Positions 34,888 through 50,040 of a DNA stretch of 64,000 nucleotides are shown here, piece by piece; position 1 is the stretch's first letter; every line of letters begins with the position of its first letter. The stretch is from NCBI RefSeq assembly GCF_000484535.1, contig NC_022600.1:868001-932000 (forward strand), given 5' to 3'. Under the pieces are notes generated by a model. The model was not told the DNA's origin and did no database searches. It was given only the letters and a program-made list of their open reading frames with translations. Made by a program: the position numbers and the translations under genes. Origin of the DNA: Gloeobacter kilaueensis JS1. GTDB lineage: Bacteria > Cyanobacteriota > Cyanobacteriia > Gloeobacterales > Gloeobacteraceae.

Positions 34888-35252
34888 GGGGCTGCACTGG
34901 CTTCGACATTCCAGAGAAAGCCGTCCATGCAGGCCGGGAGTGAGTCCGACCCCCGTTAAATCAGGCTCAAAAACAATAAGTGCGAACAACATCGTTCCCT
35001 TTTCCCGCGCTCGCGTAGCAATCGCTGCGTAGAACGGGTCTCGCAGGACGGACCCACGACGGTCTGTGAGATACGGCTAGTGGGTGCTCCGGTAAACGTC
35101 CTTCGTCGCGTCACCGGCTAAGCTTAGACGATGAATCCCGTTATCCGGAATAAGCGATAGCCCCCGCTCCTTGGGTCAATCGAGCTAAGCCTGTGAACGA
35201 ATGGTAGGTGAATAACTGCGGATGGACAGGGGTTCGATTCCCCTCAGCTCCA
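34888..35252 (+). ncRNA. ssrA: tmRNA (transfer-messenger RNA)
   Basis: A one-piece tmRNA of 365 nt that rescues stalled ribosomes. The 5' GGGGCTG (34888-34894) pairs with CAGCTCC (35245-35251), and a T-arm with GGTTCGATTC lies just before the 3' end; CCA is not encoded. The tag frame begins at GCG 34982 and ends TAG 35030-35032, encoding ANNIVPFSRARVAIAA. The NNIVPF core is the cyanobacterial type. The tRNA-like 3' half is a common phage attachment target, and an integrase gene follows. Confidence 0.95.
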
Positions 35253-35258
35253 CTTCTT
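35231..35258 (+). other. putative attL (prophage attachment site in ssrA 3' end)
   Basis: The last about 20 bases of ssrA (GGTTCGATTCCCCTCAGCTCCA) followed by CTTCTT form the probable left attachment site, because a tyrosine integrase starts 147 bases downstream and everything after it is phage-like. The exact core cannot be delimited without the right end, which is outside the window. Confidence 0.55.
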
Positions 35259-39334: not shown

Positions 39335-39753
39335 TACCGCATTCAAAAGCCTCAGCAGCGGGCCGACCCGCTCTGGGGGGAGTGGAAGTTGCTTGCGGGG
39401 CGCACCCTCTACGCGCCCCTCTTTTTCCCGCCCCCAGATCTGCCGAATATCTCGAAGCCAAGGTGCTCGAACTTGAGCACGAGCTCGCCGCTGCCTACCG
39501 CCAGATTGGCGGCCTGCAGGATCATATCCGCGCCCTCGAGGCCGAGGCCGATCAGCGCAACGCTCTGATCTTCCGCCAGGCCGCGCTGCACTTTGCTGCC
39601 CAGCGCGTCATTGCCTGCTGGGAAGAGCAGGGTGGCGGCGAAGAGCAGGAGGTCCGCCTCGCTATGGCCCTCAACTGGCTCCGCGAGGCTCTGGCTGGGA
39701 GGCCCGCGCCGAGGTACCTGCCCGCTGAGTGGCTGAAGGGAGGTGCGGCGTGA
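39331..39753 (+). CDS. phage coiled-coil protein
   Basis: 140 residues. A disordered N-terminus is followed by a coiled coil (SAEYLEAKVLELEHELAAAYRQIGGLQDHIRALEAEADQR) and a Trp-containing C-terminus. No known family. Overlaps both neighbours by 4 bases. Confidence 0.55.
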   Translation: MIPHSKASAAGRPALGGVEVACGAHPLRAPLFPAPRSAEYLEAKVLELEHELAAAYRQIGGLQDHIRALEAEADQRNALIFRQAALHFAAQRVIACWEEQGGGEEQEVRLAMALNWLREALAGRPAPRYLPAEWLKGGAA

Positions 39754-40349
39754 CACCAGAAGCACTGCAAAAAATCCTCGCGGATCACCTCGAATGGATC
39801 GGGTCGCTCGGCGAGCGCGGCACCAGGGCCAACCTGTACGGGGCCAACCTGACGAGGGCCAACCTGTACGGGGCCAACCTGACGAGGGCCAACCTGGAGG
39901 GGGCCAACCTGTACGGGGCCAAGCTGACGAGGGCCAACCTGTACGGGGCCAACCTGGAGGGGGCCAACCTGACGAGGGCCAACCTGTACGGGGCCAACCT
40001 GACGAGGGCCAGCCTGGAGGGGGCCAACCTGGAGGGGGCCAAGCTGGGCAAGGAAACGAAAATCTCACCCGAGACACGTCTGCCCACCGGCGAACTCTGG
40101 AGCGAGTACCTGGCCGAAGTTGTGCCCGCGCTTTGCACCGCCGGGGGCCGGAAACTTGAGGAAGTGGCGGGCCATTGGGACTGCCACACCTGGGAGAACT
40201 GCCCGATGGCTGCCGCGTTCGGCGTGCAAGGAATTGAAGAAATTCCGCTTCTGTTTCGCCCGCGCGCTCAGCAGTTCGTGCCACTGTTCGACGCCGGGCT
40301 AATTCCGTGCCCAGTTGCCAGGTCCGAGGCGGCGGAGGTGCAGCCGTGA
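39750..40349 (+). CDS. pentapeptide-repeat protein
   Basis: GTG 39750 overlaps the upstream stop. The 199-residue product holds fifteen consecutive A(N/K/S)LXX pentapeptides (residues about 27-101), which fold as a square beta-helix, then an unrelated 98-residue C-terminal domain with several Cys/His (DCHTWENC, CPVARS). Pentapeptide proteins can mimic DNA and inhibit gyrase, but short repeats in phages are often uncharacterised. An upstream ATG (39729) is less likely. Confidence 0.8.
   Translation: MTPEALQKILADHLEWIGSLGERGTRANLYGANLTRANLYGANLTRANLEGANLYGAKLTRANLYGANLEGANLTRANLYGANLTRASLEGANLEGAKLGKETKISPETRLPTGELWSEYLAEVVPALCTAGGRKLEEVAGHWDCHTWENCPMAAAFGVQGIEEIPLLFRPRAQQFVPLFDAGLIPCPVARSEAAEVQP
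39828..40052 (+). repeat. 15-bp tandem repeat encoding pentapeptides
   Basis: Fifteen units of GCCAACCTGnnnggg or the ACGAGG variant run without a break. The units are nearly identical at the DNA level, with only GCC-AAG and GCC-AGC variants, which points to recent expansion and a capacity for repeat-number change. Confidence 0.85.
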
Positions 40350-41305: not shown

Positions 41306-41621
41306 TAACCCGCCCCGCACCCACAACGGCGACCAGTTGCCCGTCCGCTATGAGGGCGGCAAACCGGAGAGCCGACCCGCCGCCGTAGGTGGCAGCAGTT
41401 GGGTTGAAGTCGATCTCTGCACAGCTGCTGGGATCAAGATTGGCACCTGCAGGATGCCTGAAATTGAGTCGCTGAAGAGCGCGATTGCAACTCAGAACGG
41501 CGTTTTCATCTACGACGAAGAGTCAGATCGCTACTTGAAGGTGCCTACTTACTGGCCTGCTCCGAGCCAGTTGCACTTCAACTTTGCTGCTGGCGACTCG
41601 CCGCGTGGAGGTAGCTCATGA
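41298..41621 (+). CDS. phage hypothetical protein
   Basis: ATG 41298 lies in the end of the metallopeptidase gene; 107 residues. A Pro-rich start is followed by beta-like strands (SSWVEVDLCTAAGIKIGTCRMPE, NGVFIYDEESDRYLKVPTYW). Unknown function. Confidence 0.5.
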   Translation: MSDNPPRTHNGDQLPVRYEGGKPESRPAAVGGSSWVEVDLCTAAGIKIGTCRMPEIESLKSAIATQNGVFIYDEESDRYLKVPTYWPAPSQLHFNFAAGDSPRGGSS

Positions 41622-41818
41622 GCAAGATCGCCGTATTACACGCGCGGATCAAGGAGGCAGCCTGGGAGCCTCGCCCAGGCTGCCGGGTCGCCGTCGCCAT
41701 TGTCCAGGCCGACGATTCACTGCTCCAGATTCTGCCTCTGGAGAGCCCTTACGGCGACGGCTACGAGCGCCGATGGGTGCCTGCTTCCTCAATCACCCTT
41801 CTGGAGGTGCGGCCATGA
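41618..41818 (+). CDS. phage hypothetical protein
   Basis: 66 residues, ATGA-coupled on both sides. It reads like a small beta-barrel (GCRVAVAIVQADDSLLQILP, RRWVPASSITLLEV). No family recognised. Confidence 0.45.
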   Translation: MSKIAVLHARIKEAAWEPRPGCRVAVAIVQADDSLLQILPLESPYGDGYERRWVPASSITLLEVRP

Positions 41819-42174: not shown

Positions 42175-42496
42175 AGCTAAAGCGTGCCTCGGGCCCTATC
42201 TGCAGGGGCTGGGCGCAACTGGCCGTCTTCTCGCGGATCGGTGCTTCGGGCGCTGCTGGGCGGCTGAGCAGCAGCTGTTTGCACTGAGGGCCGACGCTCT
42301 TACCCAGGCCAGTCTCAACGTTATTAGCTATCACGTAGGCGATCTGAAGGCCATCGCGTCGGAATGGGTGATCTGCTCCACCGACGAAGAGCGGGCCGAT
42401 CGACTGGAGCTGATCCAGGAGGTCGCCGATCGCTGCGAGCTGGCGATCAGAGGCTGGCTGGCCTACGAGTTGGAGCATCGCTGCAATGAAAGGTAG
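42161..42496 (+). CDS. phage hypothetical protein
   Basis: ATG 42161 with GGGGGTGG just upstream; 111 helical residues with Cys and Trp (LLADRCFGRCWAAEQQLFAL, LIQEVADRCELAIRGWLAYEL). It overlaps neighbours by 14 and 11 bases. Unknown. Confidence 0.5.
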   Translation: MSATKAKACLGPYLQGLGATGRLLADRCFGRCWAAEQQLFALRADALTQASLNVISYHVGDLKAIASEWVICSTDEERADRLELIQEVADRCELAIRGWLAYELEHRCNER

Positions 42497-42695
42497 CGCT
42501 GCAGGGGCGATCCGCTGTCCGGGCTGCGGGTGCCGCCTGAATAGCTGCATTCGCGCCACCAGAGGCAAGGAAGGGCTGCTGTCTGGCCACATATGCTTCC
42601 AGTGCCACCGCTTCTTTTTGCTCCTCAATACAGATCACCTTGCGCAGGGCGCAGCCCAGGAGGCGAGCGAGTGGGACGGCGAGCAGTTGATCTAA
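42486..42695 (+). CDS. small zinc-ribbon protein
   Basis: 69 residues with CPGCGCRLNSC and CFQCHRFF, a Cys4-type zinc ribbon like those of Com/phage DNA-binding adaptors. Overlaps both neighbours. Zinc binding is inferred from the Cys spacing. Confidence 0.55.
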   Translation: MKGSAAGAIRCPGCGCRLNSCIRATRGKEGLLSGHICFQCHRFFLLLNTDHLAQGAAQEASEWDGEQLI

Positions 42696-42922
42696 CTGGC
42701 CGGACTTTCGGCCAGCTTGTGGCCCTGCAGCCCGCTGGATGCGCCGGGCGAGGGCTATACAGGGTACCCCTTTGGGAGTGCCGCTGCCTCTGTGGCCAAC
42801 TCGCCACAGTCCGATCAACCTATCTGAACGCTGGCCGGACACGTTCGTGCGGCTGCCTGCGGGTAGAGCACGGGCGCAGATTGGGCCAGAGCAATCGAAA
42901 GCTATCTGGGAGGGCACTCTGA
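42671..42922 (+). CDS. zinc-ribbon phage protein, copy 1
   Basis: GTG 42671 is fixed by a perfect AGGAGG at 42658-42663. The 83-residue product reads DLTGRTFGQLVALQPAG, WECRCLCGQLATVRSTYLNAG and RTRSCGCLR, the pattern of a family frequent in phages next to HNH genes (DLTGxxFGxL...WxCxCxCG...SCGC). Cys residues should bind one zinc. The following gene is a paralogue. Overlap of 25 bases with the upstream gene. Confidence 0.65.
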   Translation: MGRRAVDLTGRTFGQLVALQPAGCAGRGLYRVPLWECRCLCGQLATVRSTYLNAGRTRSCGCLRVEHGRRLGQSNRKLSGRAL

Positions 42923-43155
42923 TGCCCATTCGAGCAATGGAGCTGGCAGGCCAGACTTTCACTCGCTGGACAGTGCTGAGCCGGTACGACGGGCCGCGCC
43001 TGCTCTGCGGGCCAATCTATTGGGTCTGCCGCTGCGAGTGCGGCAATGTTCGAGCCGTCGAGCAGTGCTCTTTGAGAGCTGGGAAATCCCGCTCTTGCGG
43101 TTGCCTGCGGCGGGAACTACTCATGAATCGGGGAAACAATACTCATGACGACTGA
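42922..43155 (+). CDS. zinc-ribbon phage protein, copy 2
   Basis: ATG 42922 shares a base with the upstream stop (TGATG); 77 residues. ELAGQTFTRWTVLSRYDG, WVCRCECGNVRAVEQCSLRAG and KSRSCGCLRREL align with the preceding gene across the full length, so the two arose by tandem duplication. Function of the family is unknown. Confidence 0.65.
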   Translation: MPIRAMELAGQTFTRWTVLSRYDGPRLLCGPIYWVCRCECGNVRAVEQCSLRAGKSRSCGCLRRELLMNRGNNTHDD

Positions 43156-44674
43156 ATTGCAATTGCATGATTTTCAGGCAGGTCAATCTGTCTGGATAAC
43201 CAGTGACAGGCTCGGCTACCAGGGCCAGAGCGCTGTGATTTTGGCTGTTGAAGGCAACGAAATCACCGTCAAACAAGGTGACGGTCGAGAGCGCTTGTAC
43301 AAACCTGAAGAACTGGCTTTCCAGGCGCAGCCAGAGGCATCATTACCGCCCCTATTTACGCCTGGGCAACGGGTGCGCGTCGTATCTGGCGACCGGGCGG
43401 GCAAATCGGGCGTTGTCACCACGATTTCTTCAAGCGGAATTGTGCGTGTGCGCGGCGACGAGCAGACCGCTGGACCACCGTGGGCGATTGGCGCGCACCA
43501 TCTTGAGGCGATGGCAGCTGAGGAGGAGGCGACTCCCGCCCCGCCGTCGAACGAGGCACAAAATACCGAAGAAGAGCCGTTGAAGCCCGGCGATTGCGTG
43601 AGCGGGCCTCTATTTGAGTGCGGCCAGGTGCGCTTTGTGGGCACTGACGACGATGGGCCGTGGGCCGATGTGCGCTGGGTGGCCGACTCGCGGATCAAGA
43701 GCGCCAAGTTTCCGCAAGCCCAGCTGAAAAAGCTCGAAGACGGCGCTTTTGAGGCTCCCTCCGGCTTGCCGCAGCCATTCCGCCCTGCGCGGAACTTCAA
43801 AGCTCTCGATTGGGTGGGCACGCCGAATGGCCCGGCTTTGATCACAGAGGTTAAGCCTGCGATCGGCGACTGGCTTTATGCAGCACAGGTGGGCGGCGAG
43901 GATGGCTCGGTCGTCTATTTTTATCAGACGACCGGCGGCTTAAAGAAGTGCGATCCACCGCCGGTGGCCGCCGAACAACGTTACGAGCCGGACCTATTTG
44001 CCAAGATCCTGGCGCGGGACGGCTCTCCTGTTGAGGAGGGCCAATCTCCCCCGCTGAAGGGAGGGCCAATCTCCCCCGCCGAGGGGAGCGCAGCCCCGCT
44101 TCCCCCAGCCATGCCCTTCAGCGATCAACTCTCTGATTGCTTTGTTCCGCCGCCTGTTGAGGCGTTCCCTGAAGAGCGCCAGGCCCACCACCAGGCCCGC
44201 GATAAACAGTTCGGCGAACTGCTGGCGGCTGAGCCTAAGTGTCCTCATTGCGGCGCGCCTGCAATTGTCAGCCGCGGCCCCAACTGCTGGTGCTGCAACC
44301 TGCCGTTGGAAGGCAAGGACGATTCCGAGGGAGAGACTCCTCCTGCCGCTGCAGCGACTTCGCAGGCTAGGGATCTGTTCTCGCTGCTATCTGCTGCCAC
44401 TCGTGAGGCGGTGCGCGTAATGGCTCTGCTGGAGGATGAGCGGCAGGCAAAGCACCGAGCAGCGGATGTGCAGGCCATTGCCTCTCAGAAGGCGCTTGAG
44501 GAGGTGCGGCAGTTGCGCGAACGGCTGGCCCGAGCAGATCGCCTCAAGGCCGCCGCCGCCGCTTTCAGGACCGCCATTGCAGCACCCGTATCGACCGACA
44601 GGGTGAACGAAATCATGCGCGCTCAGCACGAGCTGCTGGCCGCTGCGCTTGAGTGTGAGGAGGGCGAGGGGTGA
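43145..44674 (+). CDS. multi-KOW-like, zinc-ribbon and coiled-coil protein
   Basis: A 509-residue protein unlike standard phage proteins. The N-terminal 300 residues contain about four repeats of a small SH3/KOW-like barrel: AGQSVWITSDRLGYQGQSAVI, PGQRVRVVSGDRAGKSGVVTTI, PGDCVSGPLFECGQVRFVGT and LDWVGTPNGPALITEVKP. A zinc ribbon follows (CPHCGAPAIVSRGPNCWCC), then a coiled coil (about 415-505). KOW domains bind RNA polymerase or RNA in NusG and ribosomal proteins, so an RNA- or polymerase-linked role is possible. Unknown otherwise. Confidence 0.55.
   Translation: MTTELQLHDFQAGQSVWITSDRLGYQGQSAVILAVEGNEITVKQGDGRERLYKPEELAFQAQPEASLPPLFTPGQRVRVVSGDRAGKSGVVTTISSSGIVRVRGDEQTAGPPWAIGAHHLEAMAAEEEATPAPPSNEAQNTEEEPLKPGDCVSGPLFECGQVRFVGTDDDGPWADVRWVADSRIKSAKFPQAQLKKLEDGAFEAPSGLPQPFRPARNFKALDWVGTPNGPALITEVKPAIGDWLYAAQVGGEDGSVVYFYQTTGGLKKCDPPPVAAEQRYEPDLFAKILARDGSPVEEGQSPPLKGGPISPAEGSAAPLPPAMPFSDQLSDCFVPPPVEAFPEERQAHHQARDKQFGELLAAEPKCPHCGAPAIVSRGPNCWCCNLPLEGKDDSEGETPPAAAATSQARDLFSLLSAATREAVRVMALLEDERQAKHRAADVQAIASQKALEEVRQLRERLARADRLKAAAAAFRTAIAAPVSTDRVNEIMRAQHELLAAALECEEGEG
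44036..44079 (+). repeat. 19-bp direct repeat inside the KOW gene
   Basis: GAGGGCCAATCTCCCCCGC occurs at 44036-44054 and again at 44061-44079. The 25-base period is not a multiple of three, so the copies are read in different frames. It lies in the Pro-rich linker. Confidence 0.7.
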
Positions 44675-45705
44675 AGCCTTGCACCTTTGGCAGTCTATTT
44701 TCTGGCGGGGGCCTAGTGGACCTCGGAGCGGTGGCGGCTGGGTTGCAGCCTCGGTGGGCGATCGAGATCGATCCAGCAGTAGCAGGCGTATTTCGAGCCA
44801 ACCACAACACCCCGCTCATTGAGGGCGATGTAGCGGCGATCGACCCGAACGATCTCGATCCTGTCGAAGTTCTTTGGGCCTCGCCTCCATGCCAGGCGTT
44901 TAGCCAGGCGCGCAATCAGTCGCTGCCGCAGCGAACCGACGCCGATCTTGGTCTTCACATTCTCCGCTACACCGCAGTCCTCCGACCCCGCCTAGTGGTC
45001 GTTGAGAACGTGCCCGCCTACCAGCACAGCGACCAACTGGCGCAGATAGTCGCGGGCCTCTGGGAGCAGAGCTATTTTGTGTGTCACCAGCTGCTGAATG
45101 CCAGCTGGTTCGGCACCCCTCAGACTCGCCATCGCCTTATCCTTCGAGCCTTTCGCGGCAGCCTCGTTCCTGAACTGCGCACTTCGGCGGCGAAAGCGGG
45201 CTGGTGGTCAGCGGTTGCAGATCTGGCCGATTCCTTTCCGCCCTCTCAGCTCGCACCGTGGCAGTTGAAGAAGCTCTTTCCGCTGGAACATTTTCTAGGA
45301 GAGGCAAACACACTGATTCGCGGCTGTGGCCCCAACCAGCGTGGGCCGTGGACTGTTGGAGCCGGGCGATCGGCTCCAACAGTGATTGCTTGCGCTGATA
45401 AAATCACTCTTCGCGCCTGGCTCGTCGATGGGCAGTTCAACGGCAGCCCCGACCAACGCGACCGACCGCCTACGGTGCGCAGAGGAGACGAGCCCGCCTA
45501 CACGATTACGAGTAGCGGGGCGCTTCGCCCCGCTAGAGCCTGCCTGGATGGCCGTGTAGTTGCCCTAACTACCAGAGCGCTCGCACGGTTTCAGGATCTG
45601 CCCGACACCTATCAGTTGCCAGCGAACAAAACCCTGGCCTGCAAGGTGATTGGCAATGGCGTGCCTGTGCGAATGGCTGCAGCAATTTTGCGGGGGATGG
45701 CATGA
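44671..45705 (+). CDS. C5-cytosine DNA methyltransferase
   Basis: GTG 44671 overlaps the previous stop. The 344-residue enzyme has motif I FSGGGLVDLG, motif IV SPPCQAFSQ with catalytic Cys74, motif VI VVVENV (109-114), motif VIII QTRHR (151-155) and a C-terminal motif X IGNGVP. It transfers methyl from SAM to cytosine in a specific DNA site. No restriction gene is adjacent, so it is probably an orphan protective methylase. Confidence 0.92.
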   Translation: MKPCTFGSLFSGGGLVDLGAVAAGLQPRWAIEIDPAVAGVFRANHNTPLIEGDVAAIDPNDLDPVEVLWASPPCQAFSQARNQSLPQRTDADLGLHILRYTAVLRPRLVVVENVPAYQHSDQLAQIVAGLWEQSYFVCHQLLNASWFGTPQTRHRLILRAFRGSLVPELRTSAAKAGWWSAVADLADSFPPSQLAPWQLKKLFPLEHFLGEANTLIRGCGPNQRGPWTVGAGRSAPTVIACADKITLRAWLVDGQFNGSPDQRDRPPTVRRGDEPAYTITSSGALRPARACLDGRVVALTTRALARFQDLPDTYQLPANKTLACKVIGNGVPVRMAAAILRGMA

Positions 45706-49189: not shown

Positions 49190-49397
49190 TATTGCCCACC
49201 AGGTGGCCGCCATCGATGTCGAGGCCGCCCGTGCTGGGTTCAGCAGATACGAGCTGCGCCTGCTCGTCTGGGGCCGCTACAACGCTGTCCGCAGGGCTGA
49301 ACTCACTCCCGACGAGTTGGTGGACTTGCTTGAACACCTGCAACAGTTGCCCACACGATTACCTGCAAACAAACTTTTAACGGGAGCAGCAAGATGA
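49182..49397 (+). CDS. phage hypothetical protein
   Basis: 71 residues, helical (AGFSRYELRLLVWGRYNAVRRAELTPDELVDLLEHLQQL). Overlaps neighbours by 8 and 4 bases. Unknown. Confidence 0.45.
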   Translation: MSDIAHQVAAIDVEAARAGFSRYELRLLVWGRYNAVRRAELTPDELVDLLEHLQQLPTRLPANKLLTGAAR

Positions 49398-49870
49398 AAA
49401 CGAAACAAGAAGCCAAGGAAGCTCTGATGCTTGCTGGCTGGAGCGAAGAAGAGATCGAATCGGTTGGCATTGTCTTGCCGCCGCCATCACCAACTATCAA
49501 TCCTGAAGATTTGCAAACCTGCCCAGACAGGATGCAGAGCTTTGGCCCACAGCGCCGCGAAGAGAACCTGGATCACTGGGCAAAACGAGGAGCCGATCGC
49601 GTTTGTTCTTACTGCGGCAGCATGCACCCGGATGAGTTCGTCGCCTTTTTGCGCCGCGCCGCAGATCCGGCTCAACCCGATCGGCTCGGATTGACGGACA
49701 AGAATTACAAGCTCTACGTCCACAGGCCCGGTGTCAGCAACGCCGGTCAGGGCGCAATCAAGTTCTATAAATGGCACCTTGCTCCAGAAGGCCAAGAGCT
49801 GGAGGAGCTGGAGGCTTTATTCAAGGCAGCCGTGCAGCAATCGCGTATTAAATACGGGGGCATCGCATGA
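49394..49870 (+). CDS. conserved-type phage protein with CSYCGSMHP motif
   Basis: 158 residues, ATGA-coupled. HWAKRGADRVCSYCGSMHPDEFVAFL contains a zinc-knuckle-like CxxC, followed by DKNYKLYVHRPGV...GAIKFYKWHL. I have seen this arrangement in hypothetical proteins of other tailed phages. Function unknown; last sure gene of the early operon. Confidence 0.6.
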   Translation: MKTKQEAKEALMLAGWSEEEIESVGIVLPPPSPTINPEDLQTCPDRMQSFGPQRREENLDHWAKRGADRVCSYCGSMHPDEFVAFLRRAADPAQPDRLGLTDKNYKLYVHRPGVSNAGQGAIKFYKWHLAPEGQELEELEALFKAAVQQSRIKYGGIA

Positions 49871-50040
49871 GCACTGGAGAGATCGACTTCAAGCGGCTGC
49901 GGCCAAAGGTGAGCAAAATGGCTGAAACCCAGTCAGGAAGCGGGTTTCAGCTTTTTGGGCGGGTCGGCGCGGGTCCTTCCGGGGCCAAAAGACAGTGCGG
50001 GTATGGGCTGCCCAACTTTTCGCTAGTTACAGCCTTTTAA
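49867..50040 (+). CDS. possible last gene of the early operon
   Basis: ATG 49867 overlaps the preceding stop as ATGA and opens 57 residues (MSTGEIDFKRLRPKVSKMAE...). The strong terminator at 49921-49956 lies inside the frame, so transcripts would usually be cut before the stop; the frame may be fortuitous or read only by antiterminated RNA. Confidence 0.3.
   Translation: MSTGEIDFKRLRPKVSKMAETQSGSGFQLFGRVGAGPSGAKRQCGYGLPNFSLVTAF
49921..49956 (+). terminator. strong intrinsic terminator of the early operon
   Basis: GCTGAAACCC (49921-49930) and GGGTTTCAGC (49942-49951) form a perfect 10-bp stem over an 11-base loop, followed directly by TTTTT. It separates the early operon from the late operon. 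Confidence 0.9.

Follow-up and report, generated by a model that had tools for sequence, protein, structure and literature searches.

A prophage protein of Gloeobacter kilaueensis JS1 in which tandem KOW/SH3-like barrels are joined to a probable zinc site and a likely coiled coil

An early operon of a prophage in Gloeobacter kilaueensis JS1, a member of an early-branching cyanobacterial genus, encodes a 509-residue protein in which two supported KOW/SH3-like barrels, and up to four in all, precede a probable zinc site and a likely C-terminal coiled coil. We tentatively propose, at a probability of about 0.4, that it is an early lytic accessory protein that acts as an oligomeric adaptor on nucleic-acid complexes. 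The protein falls into an already known class, phage tandem-KOW proteins without an assigned function; the combination of parts is new within the collections that were searched.

The gene and its prophage

The gene lies within a 64 kb window (the whole stretch of DNA that was analysed) of the 4,724,791 bp host genome, and coordinates are those of the window unless stated otherwise (Table 1). The open reading frame is complete and has exactly the position and length given in a preliminary description of this DNA. Its codon use is coding-like along the full length, and codon likelihood prefers its frame in every segment. It starts 11 nt inside the upstream reading frame and shares 4 nt with the downstream C5 methyltransferase gene, the GTG start of which overlaps its stop codon. 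It is a real gene. The upstream neighbour, a small protein of a kind associated with HNH proteins, is represented in 308 phage records.

Table 1. Features of the 509-residue protein gene and its surroundings (window coordinates)
Feature	Position	Strand	Basis
Early-operon protein, 509 residues	43145..44674	+	Complete ORF, coding frame, both neighbours overlapped
Upstream neighbour, small CRCxCG...SCGC protein of HNH-associated kind	42922..43155	+	phrog_374, E 1e-15
Downstream neighbour, C5 cytosine DNA methyltransferase	44671..45705	+	PF00145, E 2e-43
Barrel 1, SH3/KOW-like, residues 9-62	43169..43330	+	Fragment model, Myosin_N match, Laroyevirus gp59 alignment
Barrel 2, KOW domain, residues 69-126	43349..43522	+	PF00467 above cut-off, VIA-align to Spt5/NusG KOW
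Possible barrel 3, residues 144-198	43574..43738	+	Weak similarity to barrel 2, low-confidence hairpin
Possible barrel 4, residues 213-272	43781..43960	+	Appearance by eye
25-nt tandem duplication, linker between barrels and probable zinc site	44035..44084	+	Two copies 92% identical
Zinc-ribbon-like knuckles, C366-x2-C369 and C381-x2-C384, residues 366-385	44240..44299	+	Sequence
Predicted C-terminal helices, residues 402-479 and 484-506	44348..44662	+	AlphaFold2 single-sequence model
Intrinsic-terminator-like hairpin before terminase genes	49920..49956	+	Stem and T run

The surrounding genes are those of a prophage. They code for a divergent repressor and a Cro-like protein, HNH-associated proteins, two DNA methyltransferases, a replication protein resembling O, the terminase and the portal, capsid and tail proteins. 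A tmRNA gene is found at 34888-35253, and a 72-nt partial copy of its 3' end (86% identical) is found at genome positions 945594-945665, which correspond to 77594-77665 in window numbering. The copy lies about 42 kb downstream of the gene, which indicates that the prophage probably has this length and is integrated in ssrA. A genome-wide PF00589 search gave no match to a tyrosine integrase within the prophage. Three other products were noted in this part of the prophage: a pentapeptide-repeat protein (ANLYGANLTRANL repeats) at 39729-40349 in the early region, a 66-residue reading frame at 41618-41818 with a sequence resembling one small SH3-type barrel, which is a candidate, and a 69-residue protein at 42486-42695 that has two CxxC pairs and no Pfam match. 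The CxxC layout of the last of these recalls, as we take it, the phage Mu Com zinc finger.

The barrels

The preliminary description had counted about four small barrels of the KOW/SH3 type. The first two of these are upheld by a family match, a structural model and a phage protein profile. Barrel 2 scores 22.8 bits against PF00467 in the search of the genome and 22.4 as a fragment, above the cut-off of 22.3; a single scan of the entire protein gives 18.7, below the cut-off, so the support from sequence for the KOW assignment is moderate. Barrel 1 matches the SH3-like Myosin_N family with an E value of 0.0016 as a trimmed fragment. The JS1 genome has two KOW matches above the cut-off besides barrel 2, while the 58 other sampled genomes of the phylum have at most two each at an E value of 0.01. 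A third match was thus seen in JS1 alone among the 59 genomes, and it is the gene described here. The usual two are taken, from their sizes, to be NusG and L24.

Structure prediction for residues 1-128 gave one acceptable model of five, of moderate confidence (pLDDT 67; the other four were at 37-41). It contains two five-stranded barrels, each with a short helix preceding the last strand. The best solved matches found with Foldseek are Spt5 KOW pairs, and the top structural matches overall comprise Spt5 KOW2-3 and KOW6-7 and the NusG KOW domain, which bears out the earlier guess of a KOW fold; families missing from the list of structural matches are not counted as excluded. With VIA-align, barrel 2 superposes on Spt5 and NusG KOW domains with Z scores of 9-10.6 and r.m.s.d. 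values of 0.9-1.9 Å over 51-57 residues. Chains from two proteins outside the transcription factors, Ssl0352 and NdhS, come close to these scores, and the fold therefore does not give the function. Taken together, the model and the family match support a KOW fold for barrels 1 and 2.

The count of four barrels is unproven. Barrel 3 resembles barrel 2 weakly (p about 0.01), has a borderline score against a barrel profile that was reached by six of 500 shuffled sequences, and shows a hairpin in a low-confidence model of the full-length protein. Barrel 4 shows no similarity to the other barrels or to the barrel profile, and a profile scan of the fragments gave no family match for either.

The zinc site and the C-terminal helices

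A zinc ribbon and a C-terminal coiled coil had also been described. For the former, the spacing of C366/C369 and C381/C384 is that of a plausible pair of knuckles and, judged from the sequence, a probable zinc site, but no zinc-ribbon family was matched significantly; the best was of the SprT type, with an E value of 0.017 for a hand-trimmed fragment. For the latter, the two C-terminal helices are predicted with confidence (pLDDT about 75-96) in the AlphaFold2 single-sequence model of the full-length protein, in which the barrels are mostly below pLDDT 50 and which was used for the C-terminal helices only. Their heptad periodicity is modest, and a coiled coil is likely.

Relatives and comparable proteins

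No full-length relative was found among INPHARED phages, PLSDB plasmids, GTDB genome contigs or the sampled cyanobacterial genomes. IMG/VR likewise held no full-length relative, the one match being the same prophage, and contigs of IMG/VR with a related TerL yielded no relative of the protein. T4-like phages were absent from the results of a tblastn search with the whole protein. Several weak matches were inspected and rejected, namely ribosomal protein L3 (L006 and similar), RsgA (L134) and matches in Satis and RHph_X66 that run antisense to the annotated genes.

The best relative of the barrels by sequence is gp59 of the Laroyevirus group. Its profile aligns colinearly across barrels 1 and 2 over 98 columns (hhalign probability 82-89%), and the fragment scores 44.1 against it. 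None of 150 shuffles exceeds 22.5, and unrelated prophage proteins score about 20. In Arthrobacter phage Laroye, the length of gp59 and the position of its KOW motif match those of phrog_15011. Like the JS1 protein, gp59 is a single phage protein made up of tandem SH3/KOW barrels, a linker and a helical segment of coiled-coil-like character. The similarity is confined to barrels 1 and 2, however, and does not extend over the full length with the same domain order: the helical segment of gp59 is N-terminal, so that the order of the parts is reversed. Furthermore, gp59 has 319 residues, is basic (pI 9.3), has three barrels as judged by eye and lacks the cysteine knuckles, and its gene stands among genes for HTH DNA-binding proteins near the tail genes. 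Two genes before it is gp57 (L115:2282-2686), in which a single KOW-like motif comes after a helical segment.

A structure match links the barrels to the SH3-like tandem barrels of a protein from Friunavirus and Daemvirus phages, annotated as 'DNA binding protein' in several records and represented by Acibel007 gp19 (the gene being assigned from the phage name of the BFVD entry and the protein length). It too belongs to an early replication module: the genes for gp19 and its Friunavirus relatives lie between those for helicase and DNA ligase, and these phages encode an RNA polymerase of their own. In contrast to the JS1 protein, it has a different C-terminal part, and the profile similarity is not significant. 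The Friunavirus proteins were rejected as sequence relatives, with gp19 scoring 18.8, little above the 17.3 that shuffles reach at most.

T4 MotB, compared here by its description, is also a KOW-type early protein of a phage, but its predicted KOW domain is a single one, joined to an OB fold. It binds DNA, copurifies with H-NS and has little effect on phage transcription (PMC7827196).

Proposed function

In the proposed adaptor, the C-terminal helices would bundle several copies of the protein, the acidic proline-rich linkers would give flexibility and the tandem barrels would dock partners onto phage complexes that handle DNA or RNA. A further contact could come from the cysteine knuckles, should these bind zinc. 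The docking partners may be encoded among the adjoining genes for DNA modification or replication. This proposal builds on the gene, the fold of barrels 1 and 2, the predicted C-terminal helices and the operon position, which the computations establish or support.

Several results argue for an adaptor: the KOW match above the cut-off, the third in JS1 where none of the other 58 genomes sampled has more than two; the likeness of the modelled barrels to Spt5 and NusG KOW domains; the colinear match to gp59, a neighbour of HTH DNA-binding genes; the placement of the Friunavirus and Daemvirus protein in replication modules; and the overlap with DNA methyltransferase genes. KOW domains in Spt5 proteins are recruitment platforms for other factors (PMC3382729), and MotB offers an example of an early phage protein, predicted to carry a KOW domain, that binds DNA (PMC7827196). 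The whole protein is acidic and its barrels are near neutral, which makes direct non-specific DNA binding doubtful; with such a charge, docking to proteins or to mixed complexes would be the better fit. The proposal is weakened by the lack of a full-length homologue, by the single acceptable model of residues 1-128 and by the occurrence of the SH3-like fold in NdhS and Ssl0352, which are unrelated to nucleic acid.

A role as a partner of the adjoining DNA methyltransferases, aiding the targeting or regulation of DNA modification, is possible but doubtful. The 4-nt overlap with the C5 methyltransferase gene, which is followed directly by a D12 adenine methyltransferase gene, is what such a role would suggest. 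Tight packing is general in this operon, however, so that the overlap by itself says little, and the related Laroyevirus gene has HTH neighbours and not a methyltransferase.

The preliminary description conjectured, in its own terms, an antiterminator or host-transcription factor, in which the KOW barrels and the zinc site would hold RNA polymerase or nascent RNA so that terminators are passed. The closest folds, those of the Spt5 and NusG KOW domains, and the place of the gene in the early operon are consistent with this, as is the strong terminator that was noted at 49921 and is borne out here as a hairpin (-19.4 kcal/mol, z -3.1) parting early from late genes. A consensus terminator scanner did not list it, probably because the loop of its longest perfect stem exceeds the 8-nt limit of the scanner. 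The hairpin is more than 5 kb downstream, however, with several genes in between, and the position of lambda Q, directly before it, is occupied by a small CxxC protein (49394-49870). The relatives of this small protein are confined to a few phages of Streptomyces, Pseudomonas and Stenotrophomonas. Phage proteins with tandem SH3-like barrels are also encoded in different genomic contexts, among them the replication modules of phages that have an RNA polymerase of their own. Finally, while the tandem barrels are shared with the multi-KOW array of Spt5, single barrels of which superpose on the model, Spt5 is not known to combine a zinc knuckle and a coiled coil of this sort. The JS1 protein is, moreover, an orphan that lacks the NGN domain: Pfam and NCBIfam scans gave no NGN match at E values up to 5, and residues 1-128 are modelled as the two barrels. 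The NGN domain is the RNA-polymerase-binding part in all Spt5/NusG proteins (PMC3382729). An antiterminator is therefore unlikely; no positive evidence for it emerged and the conjecture is not supported.

It is about as unlikely that the single-protein architecture arose by a recent fusion or through an artefact of assembly, with the tandem duplication in the linker joining the frames of two possibly once-separate genes. The two copies are nearly identical, and no further exact copy of the duplicated core exists elsewhere in the genome. The unit of 25 nt is not divisible by three, so that the loss of one copy would put the flanking parts into different frames. Frame +2, which would then lead into the C-terminal part, has a stop at 44032 immediately 5' of the repeat, and the barrels would continue in frame +1, which is open past the repeat until a stop at 44418. 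Against this, frame 0 is coding-like on either side of the duplication, the sole in-frame start that a separate C-terminal gene could use shortly 3' of it (ATG 44111) is not preceded by a good site for ribosome binding, a compensating change may have occurred earlier and the reading frame is intact in a finished genome. An assembly error is less likely than a recent fusion. If the architecture were only a recent fusion, caution would be due in inferring function from it.

A more far-reaching reading, in which the protein is an NGN-less, Spt5-like multi-KOW hub on Gloeobacter transcription or DNA-modification complexes and represents a new class of phage regulator, is improbable. A virion protein is more improbable still: SH3-like folds occur in virion proteins, but nothing direct points to one here, and the gene lies 5' of the replication and terminase genes, a long way from those for portal, capsid and tail. 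No paper on phage KOW proteins in virions was found in the literature.

Uncharacterized tandem KOW/SH3 proteins are spread over unrelated phages, and few have a known job. To these the 509-residue protein adds a probable zinc site and a likely coiled coil in a compact early operon, which makes it a clear candidate for asking whether tandem barrels act on polymerase, DNA or methyltransferases.
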